From Thraustochytrium sp. TN22 (lineage: Eukaryota > Sar > Bigyra > Thraustochytrida > Thraustochytriidae): a DNA stretch of 64,000 nt. The first letter of the stretch is position 1, and each line of letters starts with the position of its first letter. Below the pieces are notes generated by a model, which was given only the letters and a program-made list of their open reading frames with translations, was not told the origin of the DNA and ran no database searches. Positions 38,479-52,764 of the stretch are shown one piece after another. The DNA is taken from contig JABLUY010000001.1 of the NCBI GenBank assembly GCA_013306675.1, forward strand, positions 310,001-374,000, given 5' to 3'. Made by a program: the position numbers and the translations under genes.

Positions 38479-40482
38479 ATGTCAGGGCTCTCCGGCCTGC
38501 ACTTTGACGCACTGGAGGGCGGGGAAGGCGCAGGGAGCGGGCTCGGGAGCAGGAATGCGAGCTTCAGGTCGACAGCGGCTGCGAGCGATGAGGGCGGCAC
38601 CCCCCGCCTCGCGAGGGGGGGCTCGTTTCGCAAGAGCCTGGACGTCTCGCAGGCCAGGGAGAGCCGCACGCGGCGGTCGGTGGAGATCCGCAAGCGCAAA
38701 CGCGGCGAGACCGCGCGCGCGAAGCGGCAGCGGTCCCTTGAGGCTGCCGAGGGCGCGGCGTCCGCAGGAGGGTACACCGCGGACCAGGTCGTTGCGGCGC
38801 TCGACCGTTTACTTGACCCGGCCACGGCGGCCAGCGCGCTCTCAGACTTGAGGAATTGGCTCTCGTACACGCCCCGCGACGCCTTCGACGGCGCTGAAGA
38901 GGATGCGAGCGGCACCGACGGCCACATGAGCAACGACGTGGCCATGCAGCTTTGCGCCGAGCGCGGGCTCGCGGAGCGCGTGCTGCCCATTCTGCGCCAG
39001 GCCAGGGCCGAGGGTGGCGAGGCGCTCGCTCTGGACGCCGTCTGGTGCATTACCAATTTGGCCTCGGGCACGTCCTCGCAGACGGCCTCGACGCTGTGCG
39101 CCGCGCAGGCACTGGCCGACCTTGTCATCAGCGGGCGCCGCAACCTGCAGGAGCAGGCGGCCTGGGCGCTGGGCAACATGGCCGCCGAAGAGCAGCAGGT
39201 GCGCGAGGAGCTCGTGGGGCGCGGCCTCTTGACGCCGCTCGTCGTGCTGCTCCGCGAGCCGGTGGCCGTCTCGGGGCTGCGCGTCAAGCGCACCGCCGCC
39301 TGGGCGCTCTGCAACCTGGCTCGTGGCCAGCAATCCTCGGGCAAGCCCTTCTTCGACGCCGCCGCTCACCTCGCGCTCGTTCAGCTCCTTGAAAGCTATG
39401 GCGAGGAGGCGGCTCGCTCGGGCGACCACGCCGAGGCCTCGCTGCTCATGGTTGAGGTGCTCTGGGCACTCACCTTCTTGAGCGCCAAGGAGCCCAACCT
39501 GTGTATTATCCTCGTGCACCAGAACGTGCTTACGCACCTGGTGCGCATCTTCACGGCCTGCGAGGGCCGCCAAGCGCTCTGTGTGCCGGCGCTGCGCGCG
39601 CTTTCGAACCTCGTGCCGCTGCGCGTCGAGACGCCGGCGCGCCGCGCTTCCCTTTCCTATTCGGTTTGCCAGCAGCCCGGCTTCCTCGACGTGCTGCAGC
39701 GCATGCTTAGCGACCACTCGCCGGGCTCGCTCGTGCGGGAGGCGCTCTGGGCGGTCGCCAATCTGCTCACCCCCGGCAACAACATGGGCCATGTCCAAGG
39801 CAACAACAGCTACACCAGCAGCCCGGGCGGCGATGGTGGCTCCAGCAAGACTTCGGCCAGTGGCGAGGAAGAGGCGCTCACACGCGAGCTCGCCGATCGC
39901 TTTAGGCTGCCCATCTGTACCCAACTCGCGCACGGCCCAGAGGGCGCCAAGATTCCCGCAGCCACGGCGCTGCTGAACCTGGTGCGCCGCGGCGGCGACA
40001 GGGCGCTCATCGAAATCGTTGCTACGCCCGTGGACCCTTCGGTCGTCGCCTCGGCCGTCGCCATGCTGCGCCACGGCGATGTGGAGTTGGTGTGGCGCGG
40101 CCTGGATATTGTAGAGCGTGTGCTTGTGCAGCTCAGCAACCCGTTCGCCGCGGCGCGCCTTGGCGGCAGGTCCGGCACGCAGCTCGTGCTCGAGGAGGAC
40201 GGCATCGACGCGCTCGAGGCCCTTGAGATGCGCCAGCTGTCCTCGCCGTACCTGACTGACCTTTGCCAGCGCGCACACTACCTCGTGGACCGCTACTTTG
40301 GCGTCAACTTTGAGGACGACCTCGTCGATGAGGGCATCGGCAACCCGGAGCGTGGCGCTAACATGTTTCATTTTGGCGTGGCGCCCTCCTCATCCGCCCC
40401 TGCGCCCGCAGCGCCGCCCGCGGCGTCCGCAGGCCGCGGTCGAGGCGCTCACCTGCTGCAGCCGGCGTGGCTTGTCCAGCAG

Positions 40483-40523
<41 letters not shown>

Positions 40524-40620
40524 ACAACAACAAACAGGGGTACCACCTGCTACCACTCGGGACAACAAGCAGCGGACCCTGCCGGAGTGCGGCTTCGGTA
40601 CCCGGATGGATACGAAGTAA
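38479..40620 (+). CDS. Importin-alpha-like nuclear import receptor
   Basis: The product is 713 residues from ATG 38479. Residues about 60-95 form a basic importin-beta-binding segment (SRTRRSVEIRKRKRGETARAK). Armadillo repeats follow from about 100 to 620, with the classic importin-alpha helix signatures ALDAVWCITNLASGTSSQT, LQEQAAWALGNMAAE and KRTAAWALCNLARG, ending in HYLVDRYFGVNFEDD, which matches the family C-terminal helix. Importin alpha binds nuclear localisation signals and hands cargo to importin beta. This copy is longer than the usual 520-550 residues: it has a Gly/Ser-rich insertion (NNSYTSSPGGDGGSS) and an Ala/Pro plus polyglutamine tail near 668-686. The stop codon TAA sits inside a perfect GTAAGT donor-like sequence only 43 bp before the next start. 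Confidence 0.88.
40483..40536. repeat. Mixed CAG/CAA run (polyGln-coding)
   Basis: This run encodes the polyglutamine tail of the importin-alpha-like protein. It uses both Gln codons, so it is less slippage-prone than a pure CAG tract. Confidence 0.9.
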
Positions 40621-40663
40621 GTCCTCACGGTGGGGGAGGAAGCATCGTCGATACCCAAGGAGC

Positions 40664-42388
40664 ATGGTCCGGGGCGGCAACGTCGCGCGCGCGCGGGCGC
40701 GGGCCTCTGCCGCGGGCCTTGGCCTGCTGCCTGTGCTCGCCGCCTGCCTCCTCCTCGTTTCTGCGGCTGCCGGCCGTGGCATCGCGGAGATGGCGGTCGG
40801 CGGCGAGCGGGAGGTAGCAACGACGCTGCAAGACGAGGCAGCCTGCGAGGCGCTCGTGGCAGGGCAAGGCCGCGTGTTAGGCGAGTGGTACGAGATGTTC
40901 CCAACGTGCGTGTACAAAGGCATCCCGTTCGGGCAAGCGCCGCGCTTTGCGGCGCCACTGCCCGCTGGCCCGTTCGTGAACGGAACGCTGCGCGCCACGA
41001 CCTACGGGCCGGGCTGCATGCAGTCCTGCGACCTGCCATTTCCCTCGCACACGTGCCCGAGCGAGATCTCGGAAGACTGCCTCTCCCTCAACGTGTTCTC
41101 GCCCGTGCGATCGCTGCAGAAGAAGCAAGCGCCGCTTCCGGTGATTGCGTTTATCCATGGCGGCAACTACATCGTTGGCGCTGGCGGGACGAACATGTAC
41201 CACGGATCGCGCTGGGCCGCGAACCAGTCCGTGGTGGTGGTGACCTTTAATTACCGGCTCGGCGTCCTGGGCGGCCTCTACACGAAGCGCGGCAGCATTC
41301 ACGGCAACTATCAGTTGCAGGACCAGCGGCTGGCTCTACGGTGGATCCAGGACAACGTGGGTGCATTTGGCGGCGACCCGGCGCGCGTGGCGGTGGTCGG
41401 CCAGAGCGCCGGTGCCTTTTCCGTGGCCGCGCACCTAGCGAGTCCCAAGAGCTGGCCGTACTTCCAGGCTGCCATCGTCATGTCGGACCCGGTTGCGCTG
41501 CCCACGGAGACGACGCGCAAGGCGGAGGAGCTGAGCCACATTTTCGTGGAGCGCGTTGGCTGCAGACGACGGAGCGAGCAGGCGGAGGAGGCTTGCCTGC
41601 GCGCAGTGCCCGCAGAGACCATCATTGCCGAGCAGCGCAAGACGGCCTTTCCCACGGAGCCTGGCCAGCTCCTGCACAAGTTTATGCCGTGGACGCCGGT
41701 CGTGGACGGCACGGAGCTGCCGCTGTCGCCCTTTGACGCGGCCGAAAAGGAGCGGCTCGCGCCGGTGCCCATTCTGATCGGCTCGGTTGCGAACGAGTCG
41801 CTCATGTTCATCTGGGAGGCCTCGCCGGAGCCCATGACCACGACGGCCTACGAGCTGTTCGTCTCGGCAGTCTTCGGGCTGCGTTCGGCGCTTAAAATCT
41901 TTCGTCTCTATGGCCCTCCGGACGAGGCGCTCGTCCGCGCTGGAGACGTGCGGCCCTTCCTCTCCCGCATTGGCACGGACTACATCTTCACCTGCTCGAT
42001 TCGCGCGTTCGCGCGCCGCGCCGCGCGGACCAACGACGTCTTCGTTTACCGCTTCGAGCATCTGCCGTCCTTTATTGACTTTTGGAGCCGCAATAGCGGC
42101 GACCCGGAGTGCTTCGCCTCGGTGTGCCACGGCATCGATTTGAACTTTTTGTTCGGGTCCATCTACCTGCTCACGGGCGATCACCCTGACATGGACGCTC
42201 CCGAGCGGGCCATGAGCGCCTTTATACAGTCCGTCTGGGCTCGCGTGGCGGCTGGCGAGAACGCCTTGGAGCGCTTTCGCGGCGACAACTTTCTAGCCAT
42301 CGACACGCCGTCTGAGGCCACCTCATATGGCGACTTCCAGACCAAGGTCTGCGATGTCTTTGACAACATAGGCTACGAGCTCAATTAA
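40664..42388 (+). CDS. Type-B carboxylesterase (cholinesterase-like), secreted
   Basis: The product is 574 residues from ATG 40664. A hydrophobic N-terminal segment (LGLLPVLAACLLLVSAAAG) is a likely signal peptide. The alpha/beta-hydrolase signatures are complete: SEDCLSLNVF, oxyanion-hole HGGNYIVG, nucleophile elbow GQSAG with Ser248, acid Glu378 in VANESLMF and His489 in CHGIDLNFLFG. The enzyme should hydrolyse carboxylic esters; the substrate cannot be read from sequence. Several Cys pairs suit an extracellular or lumenal location. The start lies only 43 bp after the importin-alpha stop on the same strand, so its promoter must overlap that gene, or the two share a transcript. AATAAA follows the stop directly. 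The channel gene converges on it with a 56-bp gap. Confidence 0.88.
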   Translation: MVRGGNVARARARASAAGLGLLPVLAACLLLVSAAAGRGIAEMAVGGEREVATTLQDEAACEALVAGQGRVLGEWYEMFPTCVYKGIPFGQAPRFAAPLPAGPFVNGTLRATTYGPGCMQSCDLPFPSHTCPSEISEDCLSLNVFSPVRSLQKKQAPLPVIAFIHGGNYIVGAGGTNMYHGSRWAANQSVVVVTFNYRLGVLGGLYTKRGSIHGNYQLQDQRLALRWIQDNVGAFGGDPARVAVVGQSAGAFSVAAHLASPKSWPYFQAAIVMSDPVALPTETTRKAEELSHIFVERVGCRRRSEQAEEACLRAVPAETIIAEQRKTAFPTEPGQLLHKFMPWTPVVDGTELPLSPFDAAEKERLAPVPILIGSVANESLMFIWEASPEPMTTTAYELFVSAVFGLRSALKIFRLYGPPDEALVRAGDVRPFLSRIGTDYIFTCSIRAFARRAARTNDVFVYRFEHLPSFIDFWSRNSGDPECFASVCHGIDLNFLFGSIYLLTGDHPDMDAPERAMSAFIQSVWARVAAGENALERFRGDNFLAIDTPSEATSYGDFQTKVCDVFDNIGYELN

Positions 42389-42444: not shown

Positions 42445-45400
42445 TCAGTGTCGAAGTATGGACTTGCGCACGAGGGTGGTTCGGCGGTGCGCGGCAGTGA
42501 GCATCTTGGCATACTCCTCCGAGGCGAGAAACTGCGGCAGAATCTCCTTCTCGAGCGTTCTCAGCGCAGCGATGTAGGCGAGGTGAAAGGCGTCCGCGCT
42601 GTGCTCCTCCTCGACGCGCGCGATGACCTCGCGGGCCACGTCGTCGTCCAGTGCAAGGGCGTCTGGGCTATCGCGGCGGATGAACTTGTCCAGTACGGCC
42701 GTGGCGCGCTTCTCGAGGACCTGCGGGTTGTTGGGCGCTTGCTGCAGGTCGTGAACGGCGCGCACAAACTCGTAAGCTTCCATCATGAAGCGGCGCTTGA
42801 GGAAGTCGACGAAGAAGCGAAGGTCCTCCTTGCTCTCCATGAGCTGGACCACGGACGCATAGCGACCGGCGATGGGTGGGCGCAGGCGCAGCAGCCGCTC
42901 GTAGACCAAGCGCTCGCAGATGAGCACCTCGCAGAAGCTGCCCGTGACGAGGGTGACGGGTGCGAGCTCGCCCCACGCAACGTTGGGGAGCAGGAGGCCT
43001 GGGTCGAAGAGGGTCGTGCTATTGTCATCGGTCTGCGAGACGCGGTCGTGGCGCGCCACGGAGGAGGTCTGCCTCTCCAAAATGAGGCGCGAGGAGCCGA
43101 GCTCGCGCACACGATGAACGGGCATAGCGCTTGTGCCAAACGCGAGGACGCATCCCCGCGCCACGAGAATGAGACGGTGCATGGGCTCTTTGGCTTGAAA
43201 GAGCGTCTCGGCGGGTACGATCACCTCGGTGTGCAGATTGCGAAAAAGTGCGACTAGAAGGCCATCGGAGAAGTCGCGCAGCGGCCTGCAGGAAGCCGGG
43301 CTCATGCGCAGCGCCTGCTCCGCGAGGACGTCGCGCGCCGCGCAGCGCAGCGAGAAGGGCAGCTCGCGAAGGCAGTTCTCGTCCACCATGGGCATGACGT
43401 CGATCCGATACTGATGGTACATGCGCACGAGCGCGGTTGTCTGCTCGGACAAGCGCATATGCGCGACGAGCTGTTGTGCGGCCTCATGGTAGCGGCTTTC
43501 AGCCGCGGCGGTGGAGTCTTTGATGTCGATGATGGAGACGAGTGTTGACGTGATGCCGGCGTCGCAAAAGAAGGAGCCAAGGATCATGACCAGGATGGCG
43601 AAGAGGCGCTCCGCCATTCCCCGAACCTCCACGTTGCCAAAGCCCGCGGTGGTGAGCGTGTAAAAGGTTGCATAGAGCACGTCAACATAGGACAAACGGT
43701 CCTCGGGCGCGTCCGTGGGCCGCGTGGACAGAAGGACACGGGTCCCGGCGCAGGCGAGCCAGTGCGTGAGAAGGAGGACGGCTGCCACAATCTTTGTCAA
43801 ATGACGATAGCCGGCGCTGATGGATGCGTTGGATGCAGCGTCCAAGGCGTTGTCAAAGACCGTCCAGATGCGCGGTACATGGCGAATCCACAACAGGCGC
43901 AACAGGCGAAGATCGAAGACAGCCTCCGGCGAGGCACCGGCGCCTAGCGCGACCAGGTCGAAAGGGAGTGTCGCGAGAATGTCGAGCACACCCTCCATGG
44001 ACCGCAAGTAGGCGCGGCGAATGTCCTTGGGTTCTGTGTACTGAATGCCGCGTTGCACGCGCGAGACGAAGAGGGTCTTCCACACGATGGCGGTCCATGC
44101 GCCAACGTCGAGGACCGCGTCGACGAGGTGGGCGGGCAGCGGGTCTTCGCGCAGGCCGCTGTCGGGCGTAGCTGAGCGTGCCGCCCAGAACGGCACGATG
44201 AGGCCATAGGCGAGCACGAGCGCGAAGAGCAGGCCATGAAAAACAACGTAGCCAACGTGCGAGGGCAGCAAGACGTAGTTGTTGAGATCGAAGCGCGAGC
44301 GGCGGCGCGAAGTCTCGCGTTCCTCGTCGGCCTGAAACATCTTGGTGAGCTTGCGCTTGTCGAGGTTCTTCTTGGTGTGCTCGAGGTCGCTGGGCTTGGC
44401 AATGAAGGACTTGAGCTCCTGGGAGAACACCGCGAAGAGCTGCGGGTTGTCGAGCAGCGCGCGCAGGAGGTCGTCTCGCGTGAGAACGGCGACCTCGCAA
44501 GTCGTCTTGCAGCGCGCCGAGGCGGCGTAGCCAAGCGTGTTGGTCCGGAAGAAACCGTCGACGCCGGCTGCGCCACCCTTCTCCAGCTGGTAAAAGACTT
44601 TGGTCAGATCCGCCGAGACGATCTCCACGGTGCCGCTGATGATGATGAAGAGGTAAGAGCTCTCCTGACCGGCGTGGTAGAGCAGGGTGTCACGGCGGTA
44701 GCGGTCGAAGCGCAGCGTGTCGGCAAGGAAGCGCCAGAGGCCGGATGGCCCGATGACTGGCAGCCTGCGCATGGTTTGCTCGCCCACGAGCTCGAGCGCA
44801 ACTTGCGCTCGCAGCGAGTGGCTGAGAAAGCCGAGGATGTCGTCATCGTTGACGCCCTTTTGGTGCTTCCAGCAGCGGAAGGCAAAGGCGCGCAGGGAGG
44901 CGCGTAGAGCCACCGGGAGCTCGCGCAGGGTCGCGTAGGCGGATATAAGGTCCGATTTCTTCTGGTAAAGGATGGAGGTGATGTCGGACTGGGCCACAAT
45001 GTCCTCCAGGAAGGCGATGATGACCGAGTAGAGCAAGCCGCCAATGACGAGCACGCCGACCGTGTAGATGATCTCGCTTTGCGAGATGGGCACCACATCG
45101 CCGTAGCCGACGGCCGTAATGGCGGCCACGGCAAAGTAGAGCGCCGCCACGTAATGGTGAACCCAGGTACTGTGGGCGTCAAGAACCACGAGGGTGGAGA
45201 CAGGGCCTGAGGCGTCGACGCCAATGAGATTGGCGTGATTGGCGTCGACCCAGGACGACTCGCCGTTGCGGACCGAGCGGAGCGCGATGAGGTAGAATAG
45301 GCAGCCTGCCCAGTGCGCGATGAGCAAGAAGACGAAGACGAGCTTGGCGATGGTGGTGAAGCTGCGCTGTGCCTGGTTTTTCACGTGTCCGCCGAGCGAC

Positions 45401-48400
45401 GCCAGGTGGTCCAGAATGCGCAAGCCGCGCAGAAGCTTGTTGAAGCGCAGCAAGGGACCCGTCGCTCCCACAGCGAGTGTAGCGATGAGGTCGATGGGCA
45501 GCGCGCTTACCACGTCGCCAATGCCAAAGAGCGAGCGCAAATAGGCGCCGCGAAACTCGGCCGGTTGGTCAAGGCGCTGGCCATCTGAGGTCTGGAACTC
45601 GAAGAATCGAACGCGCAGAAGAACGTCGACCATGAGCAGCACGTCGCAGCAGGCATCCACAGCCACAGCCAGCGGCGGCGATTGCGCGAAGCGCCAGCTA
45701 AAGGCGAGACGAATAGGGAAGAGGACGTACTCCCACATAAGGACGAGAAACATGAGGAGCTTCCACGCGGTCTGAGTGCGCGACTCGAGTTTGAAGACGC
45801 GCGGGCCCTTGCCCTGCGCAACGACGGACTCCTCATCGCCAGCCATTTTGGCGAGCTTACCGCCGCGACGCAGATTCATGGCGATGGTCTCGCGCTGGTC
45901 GGCCGTGGCGAGGTCGCGCTCGGCTGCTGCGACAAGCGCGTCGTCGCGCTCGAAAAGCGCACCGAGATGGTGTATAACACGGCCCTGAAGCACCCACATC
46001 TCGCAGGCGGTGGTGGCGATCCACCGCGACTTGTCCACAGCCGACGTCGGGCTGCGAGAGGAGATTTGCGCCTCTCCGCGCGCGGAGAGGCGGCCTCCAT
46101 GCTCCTCAAGGACGATGCGGTTGGCCATGCTCTTGTGGGCAAAGACGCGCTCGCCAAATGGCTGTCCCTCTGCGATGCTGCGCAGCTTGATGTCGTTGGC
46201 GCCGCGCACCTCGACGTCTCCCTGCACGAGGAAAAAGAGCGCCCACTCGCTGTCGGTTTCGGCGATGATGATCTCGCCGGGCATGGCGACGCGGAAGTCA
46301 AGCAGGGCGCAAGCCTCCCGAACGAAGGCGTCGGACGCCGCGGCAAGCAGCTTGGACGTGCGCAGGAGGCCGCCAGCGAGGTCATAGACGAGCTGCTGGC
46401 GCTCGTCGGCGCATAGGTAGTCAGACTCATGCGAGCGCGGGCAGAGTAAGGTGTCGCGATACAGGCGCAGGTTAGGCAGGCGTGACCAGGAGGTCTGGGC
46501 GTGGTGCTCGCGCTCCTCGATTTGCTGGTCCCGCAGACGGACCAGGGAGTCCGAGGAGCTGGCCCGCACGAGGGCGTCGTTCCCCTCCTCTGGCATCGGC
46601 TTTGAGGTGAAAAGCGCCGGGTGCTGCTTGATGCGCGAGAAGGGCTTGGCAAAACGAGTCGTGCGGAGATCAACCGGGGTGCCCAGCACGCGGCGGAAGG
46701 TGATGAGGTCCCGCGCTTCGACGTGCTGCAAGTAGGCAAAGATGCGAGATTGCAGGTGTGCCGAAATCTTGCGATCGAGCATAAAGGCAGTGAGACAGGT
46801 CCGGTGGTGCGCGATATTATGCTCGGAGAGCTCGACGTCCTTGAGCAGCGTGCCAATGAATGACACGAGGCAAGAGTAGGCGGCGATGCCGATGATGGCC
46901 AGGAGGGTTGTGATGAGCGAGGCACGCGCCGAGCTGGGCGAGATGTCGCCGAAGCCAGTCGTCGTGATGGTGGTGAGCGACCAGTAGAAGCCGACGGAGT
47001 AGAGCTTGAGACCACTGTGCGCATGCTCTGCGGCCAGCGCTGGGTACGTGACGACGATTGTCATGCCATAGCAGGCAATGATGTGGGCCCAGAGGCAAAA
47101 GTAGACGCCGAGGCGCGCGGAGAGCGAGTTGCTGCCGATGTCGCTGGCGAGCTCGTCGGGGGCGTCCGAGGGCGGGCCCGCAGCTGCACCGCGGGAGGGT
47201 GCGGCAGTGTCGGCGCGGCGATTCGCGTGGTGGTCCGCGTGCACAGCCTGGGCGAGGCGCCTGCGTTGCCGCCAGGCATGGAAGTGGACATGGACGCGAT
47301 CGACGAGGCCGCCCAGATTGTAGAGTCGCAGGAGGAATGGAAGACGCAGGATCGCAAGGGAGCGGTCCAGGTCGGTGCGCTCCGCCTCGCCGTGGCCGCC
47401 GAAGACGAGGCTAGCCTCGAGGGCGATGCTGGCCACGGAGCAGGCCGCGAGCAACGTCTCGAAGATCGAACGCGATATGCGCATGAGAACCCCCCAGCGC
47501 CGAGCCAAGGCGGCGCGGCGCGTGGCGAGGTATTCCTGCTGAGTGGCCCACATGCCCACGGCGAGGTTGACGGAGGAAGCCACGGAACGGCGACGGTCAG
47601 TGGAACTGCTCGTGCGCCTGAAGAGACCTCGGGGGGGGGCCGGCGCCTGTGCGCGGAGACGTGCTACCGCGGCGCGAGGACCTACTCACGCTGCTGCTCG
47701 CACGGAGGCTGGGACGCTGCTGTTGCAACTGCCTAAGAACAAGCTCCTGACCCTGCTGCGCCGAGGGGTCGTGCTGCGAGGCTTTGGCGTCGCTCTCATC
47801 AAGTAAGAGCGGGCGCACGATATAATAGGCGAACATGAAGGCGTCGACGAGGGTGATGAACAGGAGCGTCGAGAGGCTCGCAGCACTGAGCTGGAGGCCA
47901 GCAATGACGAGACCGAGGTTGAACGGAACGAAGACGCTGTAATAGCCGAGGAGGAAACCAGTCGCGAGGCAGTCCCAAATCACCTCGGCGGCTGACTGTG
48001 GCTTGAAGCGGAAACGCTTGAGTCTGCGTCGCCAGCCGCTGAGATCGGCGTCGGGAGGTCTCTTCTCTGCCTGCAGCACGAGTGCGGCAATCTTGGCTCC
48101 TTTTCTCTTGTTGGCTGCGACCTGAGACTGGCGCGCGTTGGAGGATTTGCGTATGGCGAGTGCGGGCACTGGACCTTGCTGGTTGCTGGTCCCGATGTCT
48201 TGTCCGTCGGCAGAATCTGCAGCCAGTCTTTCGCGTCTATCGTCGTCGTCGTCGTCGTTGTCTTCGTCGTCATCCAGGTCCGGAGCGAGGGAAGAGTATG
48301 CACATTCGGCATCGAGCTGATCGCAGACGCGCTCATCAAGGTCTAGATCGGCCAGCGGCGTGGCTGCATGTTGCACATGCAGCCTGGCGGATGCTGCATC

Positions 48401-50257
48401 GCCGTCGCTGGTCTTGGAGTCGGCATGCCTGCCGCCGTGGATAGCGCACATGACGGCTTCAGAGGTGGCGAGCATGTCCCACTCTGGGAAGGTGAGCGCG
48501 AGGCGGCGGAAGTCGACGTAGCTGAGGTGGATGACCTCGCAACGCGTGAGCGCCGTGTAGCGTGGCGCCTGGCAGTGCAAAACGTCAAAAAAGCTGAGCG
48601 CACCGAGCGAGCTACCGGGCGCGAGCACGTCGGGGAAATGGCTCTGCACCTCGGCTTTGAGCTCGTTGGAGGGCTCCGCGTGGACGCCGCGAGGGGACTC
48701 GAGGTCTGCAAAGCCCCATAGCATCTCGGAGGAGGCCGTGAAGCTGCGGTCGATGGCGCGGCGGGAGCTTCCTTGCCGCAAGGATTCCATGCGGCGGTGG
48801 TTGGTAGCAGTGGTGGCGTTCGTGGTGTTCGTGGTGGTGGCGGGCTGGTCGTTCGCGGGCGCGTCGTGGTCCCGGTCGGCCTTGTCGGTGCTGTTTCGCG
48901 AGCGGAAGCGGCCAAAGGCGATGGAGCGCAGCGAGCGCGAGCTGGCGCCAAAGAAGCCGTGTTGCTTCGTCGTCTCTGCGCGGCGCGGTTTCGTGTTGCT
49001 GCGCTTGGACGCGGTGCCATTAAGAAGGAAGCAAAGCACGCCGGGGCGAAATGGCAGGGTGGTCCACGGATCGCGCAGCGTGCGGCCTGGCTCGAAGATC
49101 GAAGGTTCCATGAGGTCGACGAGCGCGAGCACGACCTGTCTGCAAGGTTCCTTGGAGCCCGGCATTCGGAAGAGTGGCACGTTCATGAGATGGGTGGCTC
49201 GCTCGACGAGCACCTCTCGCACAAGCGTGGGCGGGAGCGCGTCGAAGATCTTGGTGCGCGAGAGGCCGCGGGAGCGAGTCCAGAGGCGCTGCAGAGAGCG
49301 GACAACGATGCGCTTCGTGGCATTTGGAAACCTTCTCTCCCTGAGGACGAGGTCGACGCTCTCGATCGTGCCTCTGTGCGCGCTGGGCGTGGAATCGAGA
49401 TTGATGAGGTAGGATGTGAGGTTGGCGATCATGTAGGCCATGACGAAGACACCGGCAAGGCACAGGGCGGACCCGAAGAGTCGCTCGGCTGCGGTCGCCG
49501 GTGCGACATCGCCGTAGCCGACAGTAAGCAGGGTCTGCCAGATGAAGTGCATGGAGCGTGCGAAACGCAGGGCAGCCGGCGAGGCCGGGTCTTCGAGGTT
49601 GCGCGTGGAGTTGGCGTTGCGCAAGCCATCATGATCGATCCACGATAGCCCAGGCTGGCCGAGCTCGCCGAGCCAATAGTAGAGCGCGGATCCGAGCCCC
49701 TGCACGACAATGACGACGGCCGCAAAGCCGGCGAGGCGCATGAGCTGCTGCGGTGGGTTGGGAAAGACGCGCTTGACGACACTAAGAAAGGCGGGCACGT
49801 AGGCCTGGACCACCCTTTTCACGTGCAGCAGCTTGGCAAGCGAAAGGACGCTCGTTGCGAGCGAGACGCCGGAGGTGGCGTAGGCGACGAGCCCGAGTGG
49901 CAGGACCGCGAGGAGTGCGGCAGGTTTCCGGATGACGTTGCGGAAGAGGTTTGGTGGACTGCCATTGGCCTGCAGCCACGCGTCTCCGGCGAAGAGCACG
50001 GAGACGACCGAGTCAAGGCCGACCGCGACCAGCACTGCCACGTTCGAGCTCTCGGGGTGAAATTTGAGGAGAAGTGGCGAGGTGGACCCGATTACGAGGT
50101 AGCCGGCGAGGCAGGCGCAAGCCAGCGGCACGGTGCCAGGCCACTCCGCGGTGTGGTTTTCTGCCTTATTGACGAACTCCTTGTCTCCGGGTGCCGCGTC
50201 TCCGGGGGCCGGGGCGACCGCCCGCGCCCCGCCGGAAGGTCGTAGCCAGCGGCGCAT
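42445..50257 (-). CDS. Four-repeat cyclic-nucleotide-gated-type channel with C-terminal RGS domain
   Basis: Two adjacent frames, 50257-47690 and 47646-42445, join across a 43-nt intron into 2589 residues. Four channel units follow one another. Repeat I: membrane segments from about 40, filter TVGYGD near 247, cyclic-nucleotide-binding-like domain (cNBD) from 375 with about 120 inserted residues. Repeat II: S1-S2 at 750-815 before the intron, S3-S6 after it, filter TTGFGD near 1086, cNBD near 1311-1400 with PFGER...NR. Repeat III: S1 near 1481, filter AVGYGD near 1703, cNBD near 1844-1925. Repeat IV: S1 near 1983, filter TAGFGN near 2190, cNBD near 2318-2438. Residues about 2455-2575 match an RGS domain (DLRFFVDFLKRRFMMEAYEF; ILPQFLASEEYAKML). 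Single-chain four-repeat CNGK channels are known from sea urchin sperm; I know of no RGS fusion. It should act as a potassium-type or mixed cation channel at a membrane. Confidence 0.82.
47647..47689 (-). other. 43-nt intron joining the two halves of the channel gene
   Basis: On the minus strand the donor is AGC|GTGAGT and the acceptor is GCGCACAG|GCG. Removing these 43 bases takes the reading from the upstream frame, which otherwise stops at 47597, into the downstream frame, which has no ATG near its beginning (its first codon in the uninterrupted frame is GTG). The junction falls between S2 and S3 of channel repeat II, so both halves are incomplete without it. Confidence 0.72.
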
Positions 50258-52764
50258 TCTGCCGGATACGGCGGCTGCGGCGGCTGCAGCTGCGGCGGCT
50301 GCAGCGGCTGCAGCGGCAGTAGCTGCAGCGGCTCGGCCGCGAGCTTTGAAGACTGCCTGCTGACTCTTGCCCTGTGTTGCTGTTTCGACTCCCCTCCAGC
50401 GCTGGCCACCTTGCCTTCGCCGCCCAGGTCAGGGTCGTAACGTTAGTTCCATCGGGCTTACAAAGGCACCATTGCTCCATCGCGCCAGCATGTACACCAG
50501 CTGCTTCGTTGCGGGCCAACGGCCCTTTAGGCGCTGCGTCTCTTGTCGCGCCTGGTGCCGGGTTTCGGATGCGGAGATGTTGTGGCCTACATTGGTTGGT
50601 ACCACCTCCTCTTGGCAGTGGTCACAGATAGAGAGGTCTTCCTTCTCCTTGGTGCGCTGCGCAGCGCTGCGCGACAGAGCACAGGGCGGAGCAGTGCGGC
50701 GCTCGATCGGCGGCTGGCACAGCTTGCCGTGGAGGAGGAGAGAACGCACGAAGCACCCTTGAGCCGCGAGACGATGGGTGTCGTGCAGTGGGGCCGTTAG
50801 GCTGCGCAACGCATATGGATAAAAGGCGTTGCGCAGATCGACCCGAGCGATGCACGTGCGCTTCTCGGTGCGCAGCGCGAGGCGCTGCCCGGCCTGCGCA
50901 TGGCAACTGGCCCGCTGTGCTGCGCTGCAGCCAGCCAGCAACGAGCTTCGCAAGCGGGTGGGCACCGAGGCTCTGCTCACTCGGACAGGCTCGACTCGCG
51001 ACTCGCGCAGCAATCGTCCAAAGCAGTCTTGGGGAAATGCGCTTGCCCACAGCTCCCAGGAGTGCTTCGCGAGGTGACTAGTGCTTCGCGAGGTGACTCT
51101 TTGGCTGCTGCTGCTGCTGGCGTGCGTAACGCAGAAGAAACACGAGGATCCTGATCGTGGACACCAGGTTGTAAGGACTCGGACTGGGCTTTTACTGCCG
51201 TAAGGCACGGTGGTTGGCGCGGCCCGGGGGCGGTCATGGTCCGAGTCGGTCAGGCAGATTGGCGCGCTCCTTAAGGTCGCAGAGCAGGCATTCCCGGACA
51301 AGGTCCTCCGCTTCCCCTGGTGTTTCCGAGGCATAGAGAGAAGAGAAGAGACGCTCCGGTGCTCCGCGGCTCATGATGCAGCCGTGGCGGCTGGAGGCAC
51401 AATCGCTCCGATTCGCTCGTGTCGCGAGCGCTTCACGGCAAGTACGTCGCTCTTGATCTAGCAGGTAACACGCCGGCCGCACAGCACGAGCAGCGTGCAG
51501 CACAGGACGCAGCTCCGGCAGAGGGAGTCTCAGACAAAAGGAAAGCGTCGGCCTAGTGGGCCGGTTGATCGACAACGCTTCGAAAATTGGCGCTGGATAA
51601 CCATGCGACTTTTGGATGTTGGCGAAGCATGAGATGGGCGCGAGCACTCCAACCGAAGCGGACGCCGCGATGCGAGATGCGACGCTCAGCACGCGCTCGT
51701 CCAACATGGCCCCTGCAAGCTCCAGCCTACTCCTACCCCACGATGTGTGCCTGCCGCCAAAGGCACGCCGCAACCAACCTTGCGGGCTGCAGCGGCCGCC
51801 GCAGGAACACCATCAGCAGATGCTACTGGCTGCAGATGTTGCAGTGCTTCTTGTCGGAGCGCTGCACCGGCCCCGAGGTCAGCCTCGATGCACGTGAACG
51901 CTCCAGCGCAATTCTTGTCTGGGGGCGGTTGATCCAGCTACCGCAGTCACTCGGCAACTGGGGCCATCGTCCACCAAATCCCCGCACTGCGGTATAGGGC
52001 GTGGAGGGGCTAGCCAAATACTTGCCTCCAGCCCTGCACACCGTACCACCGCACGTTGGGCCAGGGGTGAGCGAGCGCGCGATCTCGCCGGCCACCGCCG
52101 ACGCCTTGCCGGCCGCCGCGGGGCCGCGTGCGAGACGCGGCAGCGCCAGAGCAAGGACGGGCGGGCGGGCTGGCGCGCGCGCGGGCGGGCGGGCTGCCTG
52201 GCGAGCAAGCGAGCGAGCGAGCGAGCGCAGAGCGGGCGCGCCCTGCCGGTGCCGGGCCGACGCCGCTGGACAAGGCAACGCGAGGGTGGCTGGCGTGCTG
52301 AGGACGAGCGAGCGAGCAAGCTCGCATCAGGGCTCAAGTCGTGGCACCTTGGCAAGGCCTTCGACGCGCCTCAGCGGCTGAAGCATACCCCAAACTCCCT
52401 GGGCAGCGCCGCGGTGGTGCGAGGCGCGAGATCGCGAAGCACGCCAGCCGCCACGCGAGCGCGAGCCGAGCCAGGAAGGCGTGGCAAAGTCGCATCGCCC
52501 ACGAGCGGGGCGAGCGCATCATCCCCTTGGCAGCCTGAGCTAGCAGCTGCGCGCAGGCGAGAGCACGAAGCGGGCGAGCGAGCGGGCCAGCGAGCGGGCG
52601 AGCGGGCGGGCGAGCGAGCGGGCGAGCGAGCGAGACGAGCGCGGCAGGCTTGGCGGCCTTGATCGCGAAAAGTCGGCGGCGAGCGGCGCCGCGCGGCCCG
52701 CCCGGTTGATCGAACGGGTCCGAGGTGCTGCGGAGGTCCCCGCCAACGGCGGGCGGGGACGCAC
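50258..52764. other. Intergenic region, GCN repeats and unassigned open frames
   Basis: A GCN/CTGCAG repeat at about 50265-50335 lies directly upstream of the channel start. A perfect 19-bp tandem duplication (AGTGCTTCGCGAGGTGACT) is at 51061-51098. Minus-strand open frames at 50429-51334 and 51234-51773 have somewhat coding-like composition; the first contains CDHCQEEV and LLLHGKL, which faintly recall the C-terminal part of non-LTR retroelement proteins. I cannot support a gene call. GAGC/GCGG repeats dominate from 52.0 kb. Confidence 0.35.

Follow-up and report, generated by a model that had tools for sequence, protein, structure and literature searches.

Four-repeat CNGK channels are known from metazoans and choanoflagellates, and tandem channels of the cyclic-nucleotide-binding domain (CNBD) superfamily with two repeats are known from oomycetes and dinoflagellates; the survey describing them reports that no tandem channels were found in labyrinthulomycetes (PMC7576140). 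The same source gives the corresponding domains of KCNH channels a low affinity for cyclic nucleotides. Here, we describe a gene of Thraustochytrium sp. TN22 that appears to encode a complete pseudo-tetrameric channel of the CNBD superfamily, with predicted K+ selectivity and four six-transmembrane (6TM) units in one predicted polypeptide, and that ends in an RGS domain. The gene lies on the − strand of a 64-kb stretch of DNA (hereafter, the window), which is part of contig C111 (626,901 bases) in a genome of 37.9 Mb.

A four-repeat channel gene with an RGS tail

Two long open reading frames (ORFs) overlap on the − strand. One, of 943 codons (47597–50428), holds repeat 1 and S1–S2 of repeat 2. 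The other, of 1,746 codons (42445–47685) and without an internal stop, holds S3–S6 of repeat 2, repeats 3 and 4, and the RGS domain. A 43-nt GTGAGT...CAG stretch (47689–47647) connects both ORFs in frame, and the joined protein, read from the Met at 50257 (50257–47690 plus 47646–42445), has 2,589 residues and a stop. Many other GT...AG or GC...AG pairs also connect the two frames, and a run of nine C lies close to the junction; thus, the exact junction given here is putative. It falls in the S2–S3 loop of repeat 2. The ORFs are therefore not two sets of whole channel units, and the order of domains is unchanged under every listed junction. The features, in the order of translation, are as follows.

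42445–50257, −: whole gene, from Met 50257 to the stop at 42445–42447; 2,589 residues, one putative intron
49388–50125, −: repeat 1 transmembrane part (residues 45–290), filter TVGYGD at 49508–49525; Ion_trans 1.6e-10, Ion_trans_2 1.2e-11, hydropathy
48473–49120, −: repeat 1 degenerate cyclic-nucleotide-binding domain (cNBD) region, split by a low-complexity insert; cNMP_binding 13.4 bits, SthK match, extent by eye
47798–47995, −: repeat 2 S1–S2, in the first ORF; hydropathy
47647–47689, −: putative 43-nt intron GTGAGT...CAG in the S2–S3 loop of repeat 2; alternatives are other junctions or a frame break at the nine-C run
46840–47502, −: repeat 2 S3–S6, filter TTGFGD at 46945–46962; Ion_trans_2 2.1e-10, SthK 1e-18
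45940–46332, −: repeat 2 cNBD with FGE and displaced arginines, interrupted by an insert; cNMP_binding 20.4 bits, profile 4–58
44980–45768, −: repeat 3 transmembrane part, filter AVGYGD at 45097–45114; Ion_trans 5.1e-20, KCNH1 9.9e-36
44452–44703, −: repeat 3 cNBD; cNMP_binding 45.8 bits
43525–44262, −: repeat 4 transmembrane part, filter TAGFGN at 43633–43650; Ion_trans 2.5e-11, hERG 6e-16
42895–43287, −: repeat 4 strongly diverged cNBD region; the hERG alignment enters its start, extent by eye
42505–42849, −: RGS domain; PF00615 above cut-off, RGS18 2.2e-10, hhalign 2.9e-9

All four repeats carry K+-type filters, at residues 245, 1085, 1701, and 2189, and a repeat-by-repeat scan placed Pfam Ion_trans or Ion_trans_2 above its cut-off in each of them. 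The best PDB matches by phmmer are SthK for repeat 1 (1.4e-17) and for repeat 2 with S1–S2 excluded, KCNH1 for repeat 3, and hERG for repeat 4. In every repeat, the alignments to SthK, KCNH1, or hERG extend into the cNBD. By channel models and filters, the four pores are those of CNBD-superfamily K+ channels, with S1–S6 counted by hydropathy. As in CNGK, four 6TM-CNBD repeats are found in one chain as predicted from genomic DNA, although the cNBDs are uneven.

The RGS domain is well supported by profile searches. The 156-residue tail alone matches Pfam RGS (PF00615, cut-off 23.9 bits) with 56.0 bits (E = 6.2e-15) across positions 3–116 of the 117 in the profile, and the match within the whole ORF 42445–47685 has a Pfam E value of 3.1e-13. 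RGS18 is the best match in a PDB search with the tail, which also returned RGS2 and fly CG5036. An hhalign comparison with a profile of 12 RGS domains from the same genome gave a probability of 96.1%. The domain starts soon after the cNBD region of repeat 4 with the frame unchanged, so that repeats 3 and 4 and the RGS domain share one uninterrupted frame. Third-position GC ranges from 0.68 to 0.86 across all 13 blocks of both exons and is 0.84 in the RGS part.

The cNBDs are less well preserved. Pfam cNMP_binding (profile length 89, cut-off 27.5 bits) exceeds its cut-off in only one of the four repeats, repeat 3. Repeat 2 and repeat 1 (profile 43–86) score below it, and Pfam gives no match for the cNBD region of repeat 4. 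We also read the cassette of these domains by eye, as FGE with an arginine at the ninth residue after the glutamate (its usual spacing). None of the four repeats has this combination, repeat 2 being ambiguous (see below), and repeat 4 has WGE with no arginine within 16 residues. It is likewise absent from C445, a second gene described below, but C417 and C453 have it twice each and C409 has it once. Histidine occupies the ninth place after FGE in C310, C38, and C233, as it does in another cassette of C453 and another of C409. On these readings, three of the four cNBDs in the window protein are degenerate, and cyclic-nucleotide gating of the channel is doubtful, and probably weak or absent.

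An earlier note on this DNA, made from the sequence alone, had proposed four pore units and a C-terminal RGS domain in a polypeptide of 2,589 residues. The searches bear this out, and the chain length is reproduced exactly. The note had also placed a cNBD-like domain after each pore; the layout stands, while the domains themselves are for the most part not intact.

A diverged second gene and other four-repeat channels

The genome holds a second gene with the same order of four repeats, in one ORF of 2,823 codons (C445:75881–84349). It is the gene nearest to that of the window: the best blastp pieces between the two proteins are collinear, and repeat 4 carries GFGN in each. A tree of the repeats, built from 27 rows (17 tandem repeats, 8 single channels, KCNH1, and SthK), pairs those of the two genes by position for R1 (95/86), R3 (96/98), and R4 (94/90), with a warning of long branches at the R1 and R2 pairs and an unsettled bootstrap. 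The R2–R2 pairing is unsupported (33/33). This tree excludes repeat 3 of C417, which is without a K+ filter motif, and L075, L077, L078, and L080 (no usable motif or short frame). A kinship of repeat 1 with 3 and of repeat 2 with 4, as in CNGK, is unsupported in it.

We find an RGS-like tail within the last 207 residues of the C445 ORF. RGS is the sole Pfam family matched there at E up to 10 (14.7 bits, E = 0.041, profile 1–115 of 117). Against a hidden Markov model (HMM) built from 39 of the genome's RGS matches and three PDB chains, with the window RGS excluded, the tail aligns in two collinear pieces with 23.4 bits. Controls reached at most 10.7 bits with 5,000 shuffles and at most 8.5 bits when other long frames were cut into 991 overlapping tiles. 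With hhalign, P was 4.4e-4 over 130 columns for the C445 tail and 0.6 for that of C417. Since the repeats of C445 follow the same order and its tail is a diverged one of similar kind, the fusion is most likely older than the duplication that separates the two genes. A tree of RGS domains (44 rows, with five partial or odd matches excluded) leaves the window row unresolved and joins C445 to another long branch, C106. Both channel tails are nearest by path to C453, on very long branches, and we make no claim from this about the origin of the tail.

Among the 42 ORFs with an RGS match, cNMP_binding is also present in 5 and Ion_trans in the window ORF only (E up to 0.001). Ion_trans and cNMP_binding occur together in 14 ORFs, the window's included, with four Ion_trans stretches apiece in C417, C401, and C445. 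These three are further four-repeat channel ORFs of the CNBD family, of 2,604 (C417, L012), 2,468 (C401, L013), and 2,823 codons (C445, L014 and L065). The tails of C417 and C310 gave no RGS match with Pfam at E up to 1 or with the genome RGS HMM, nor, for C417, with hhalign. The last 30 residues of C401 resemble the start of an RGS domain at a similar distance from the fourth cNBD; they rank 124 of 5,001 against shuffles, and we do not claim them. A scan of viral contigs with the last 615 residues of the window protein found no relative.

Possible roles of the RGS tail

Three contacts described as critical between RGS4 and G-alpha are Asn128–Gln204, Asn88–Thr182, and Asp163–Thr182 (PMC8252600). 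In the window RGS, the positions of Asn88, Asn128, and Asp163 are occupied by A, A, and H, respectively, so that all three are replaced. We take the motif of RGS18 to place the RGS4 numbering correctly on the alignment, and one further position, which we presume to be Glu87, is kept. The C445 tail reads F, P, and A at the three positions, on an uncertain alignment. The earlier note had expected the tail to accelerate GTP hydrolysis, and the replaced contacts argue against this. Elsewhere in the genome there are 44 other RGS matches, one of them gapped at the Asn128 position and several of them partial; asparagine stands at both asparagine positions in 17 of them, and 34 have N at the Asn88 position or N or S at the Asn128 position. 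With 12 G-alpha matches scoring 163 bits or more, the genome also offers a possible partner.

We favor, with a probability of roughly 0.55, a K+ channel whose RGS-homology (RH) tail docks a partner, possibly G-alpha, instead of serving as a GTPase-activating protein (GAP). With the classical RGS contacts gone and three cNBDs degenerate, the tail is most likely a docking module. The last C-linker/cNBD region continues directly into this RH-type module, which would use a surface distinct from the classical GAP contacts to bind active G-alpha or another partner. Once docked, the tail would place the channel in a signaling complex, and it might also move the C-linker of repeat 4 and so alter gating. 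In GRK2, the RH domain binds G-alpha by another surface. Together, the loss of RGS contacts and the decay of most cNBDs suggest a change of signal and not a simple addition.

Several observations weigh against this proposal. Neither asparagine is kept in 10 of the 44 other RGS matches, and channels are thus not alone in this loss; the window RGS belongs to a minority of the genome's RGS domains that are unlikely to be classical GAPs and is not unique there. Three positions in a single alignment are the basis for the probable loss of GAP activity, and losing the three contacts should also weaken the binding of G-alpha itself, although a change in G-alpha could make up for the loss. In repeat 2, FGE is retained, with arginines at residues 11 and 42 after the glutamate. 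The C445 tail scores below the Pfam RGS cut-off of 23.9 bits, its hhalign probability is just 33.6%, and it matches no PDB RGS chain at E up to 1. Compared directly with the window RGS by blastp, it yields at best a 22-residue piece (E = 0.002), and the two are unpaired in the RGS tree. The proposal as a whole is drawn from genomic sequence.

A bolder alternative is a single-chain K+ channel gated directly by G-alpha, in which the tail would receive active G-alpha and take the place of cyclic nucleotide at the C-linker. Such a channel would have evolved in a thraustochytrid and been kept in two genes. GIRK channels, by comparison, are run by beta-gamma. We regard this alternative as rather unlikely.

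The channel might instead be gated by cyclic nucleotides in the manner of CNGK, perhaps through repeat 2 alone, with the RGS tail as a minor scaffold. Four repeats, K+ filters, and the C-linker/cNBD layout all resemble CNGK, repeat 3 matches the full cNBD profile, and the FGE and arginines of repeat 2 point the same way. Yet the combination of FGE and Arg at the ninth residue is missing from all four repeats while C417 has it twice, and the Pfam model passes its cut-off in one repeat of four. Zebrafish CNGK, moreover, is an example of such a channel losing this gating (PMC4749565). We therefore consider gating by cyclic nucleotides unlikely.

A working GAP, with which the channel would switch off G-alpha at its membrane site of action, is somewhat less plausible again. 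The clear RGS homology, the many G-alpha genes, and the kept Glu87 position speak for it; the residues at the Asn88, Asn128, and Asp163 positions, and less securely those of C445, speak against it. We find it improbable to much the same degree that the tail has lost its function and is now a decaying relic. In favor of this, the C445 tail has diverged strongly, C417 shows no RGS, and the short stretch at the end of C401 resembles RGS by eye without being significant. The window RGS, however, still matches nearly the full profile at 56.0 bits, and its third-position GC resembles that of the remainder of the gene. Finally, an artefact, either two adjacent genes or a misassembly, is suggested by two ORFs in different frames joined from genomic DNA only and by the nine-C run at their junction, but is very improbable given that the frame changes inside repeat 2, that the RGS domain shares its frame with repeats 3 and 4, and that C445 repeats the layout in a single ORF, which makes an assembly accident unlikely.

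Other genes and comparison with known systems

Downstream of the channel gene, the frame of a convergent gene of the carboxylesterase family (40298–42388, +; PF00135, 6.3e-94) stops 56 bases short of it; an Armadillo-repeat gene precedes this carboxylesterase gene. Four soluble proteins elsewhere in the genome have two to three cNMP_binding stretches followed by RGS (L016:1407–3413, L017:1033–3216, L018:991–3033, and L019:892–2301, all −). Their RGS domains keep the Asn128 position in all four cases, and their early in-frame starts (MGCGGS, MGGGVS, MGCASS, and MGGCVQS) presumably resemble N-myristoylation sites. These proteins are candidate membrane-anchored GAPs under the control of cyclic nucleotides. 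RGS also occurs with BAR, PH, and ArfGAP in C428 (L028; order BAR, RGS, PH, ArfGAP) and with PDZ and DENN in C106 (L030).

Further cNBD-rich ORFs include one on C337 (L020; 1,797 codons), in which six cNMP_binding stretches are the only Pfam matches at E up to 1, and two neighboring ORFs of 2,102 and 1,888 codons with no Ion_trans among the matches listed (C418, L021/L022). Two 1,528-codon ORFs with equal cNMP_binding scores lie on opposite strands of C37 (7318–7608, −, and 92872–93162, +), a candidate inverted duplication or assembly artefact. In addition, a 3,044-codon ORF on C124 matches a PfaA-type polyunsaturated fatty acid (PUFA) synthase over 2,429 residues (1974.6 bits) and has ten tandem acyl carrier protein (ACP) domains; eukaryotic PUFA synthases carry 6–13 tandem ACPs (PMC9702510), and the ORF thus fits a thraustochytrid as the likely source of the genome. 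A search for an exact rRNA pattern gave no match.

If it works as we read it, the fusion unites a G-protein element and an ion-channel pore in one molecule, and a unicellular eukaryote would offer a test of direct G-protein control of membrane voltage. The gene extends four-repeat CNBD channels, too, to a lineage for which PMC7576140 reports finding no tandem channels. The earlier note knew of no described protein with this layout, and our literature searches agree, with a diverged second version now found in the same genome. Among 5.39 million papers, a set outside subscription journals and protein databases, none combines the terms “RGS domain” and “cyclic nucleotide-binding domain,” and no RGS-channel protein is named in the titles and abstract openings of related searches. 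An unannotated relative may already exist in public sequence.

CNGK channels of sea urchin, zebrafish, and choanoflagellate are alike in having four 6TM-CNBD repeats per chain and GYG or GFG filters; compared by layout, they differ in that RGS is absent from the main texts available for them, and in that the window protein has three degenerate cNBDs (PMC4749565, PMC7576140). The tandem CNBD channels of oomycetes and dinoflagellates, organisms of the same supergroup as thraustochytrids, have two repeats where the window protein has four (PMC7576140). Plant 7TM-RGS proteins likewise attach RGS to a membrane protein, but this is a receptor and not an ion channel, and the word “channel” does not occur in the available text on these GPCR bigrams (PMC6033456). 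In the soluble cNBD-RGS proteins of the same genome (C453, C409, C38, and C233), RGS also follows the last cNBD; these differ in having no channel match and in keeping asparagine at the Asn128 position in 4/4 and at the Asn88 position in 3/4. KCNH channels (EAG and hERG) and SthK provide the best PDB matches of the window repeats, but each of their chains has a single repeat in those alignments. GRK2, too, has an RH domain attached to another module, which there is an enzyme: the partner is a kinase, and in the window protein it is an ion channel.

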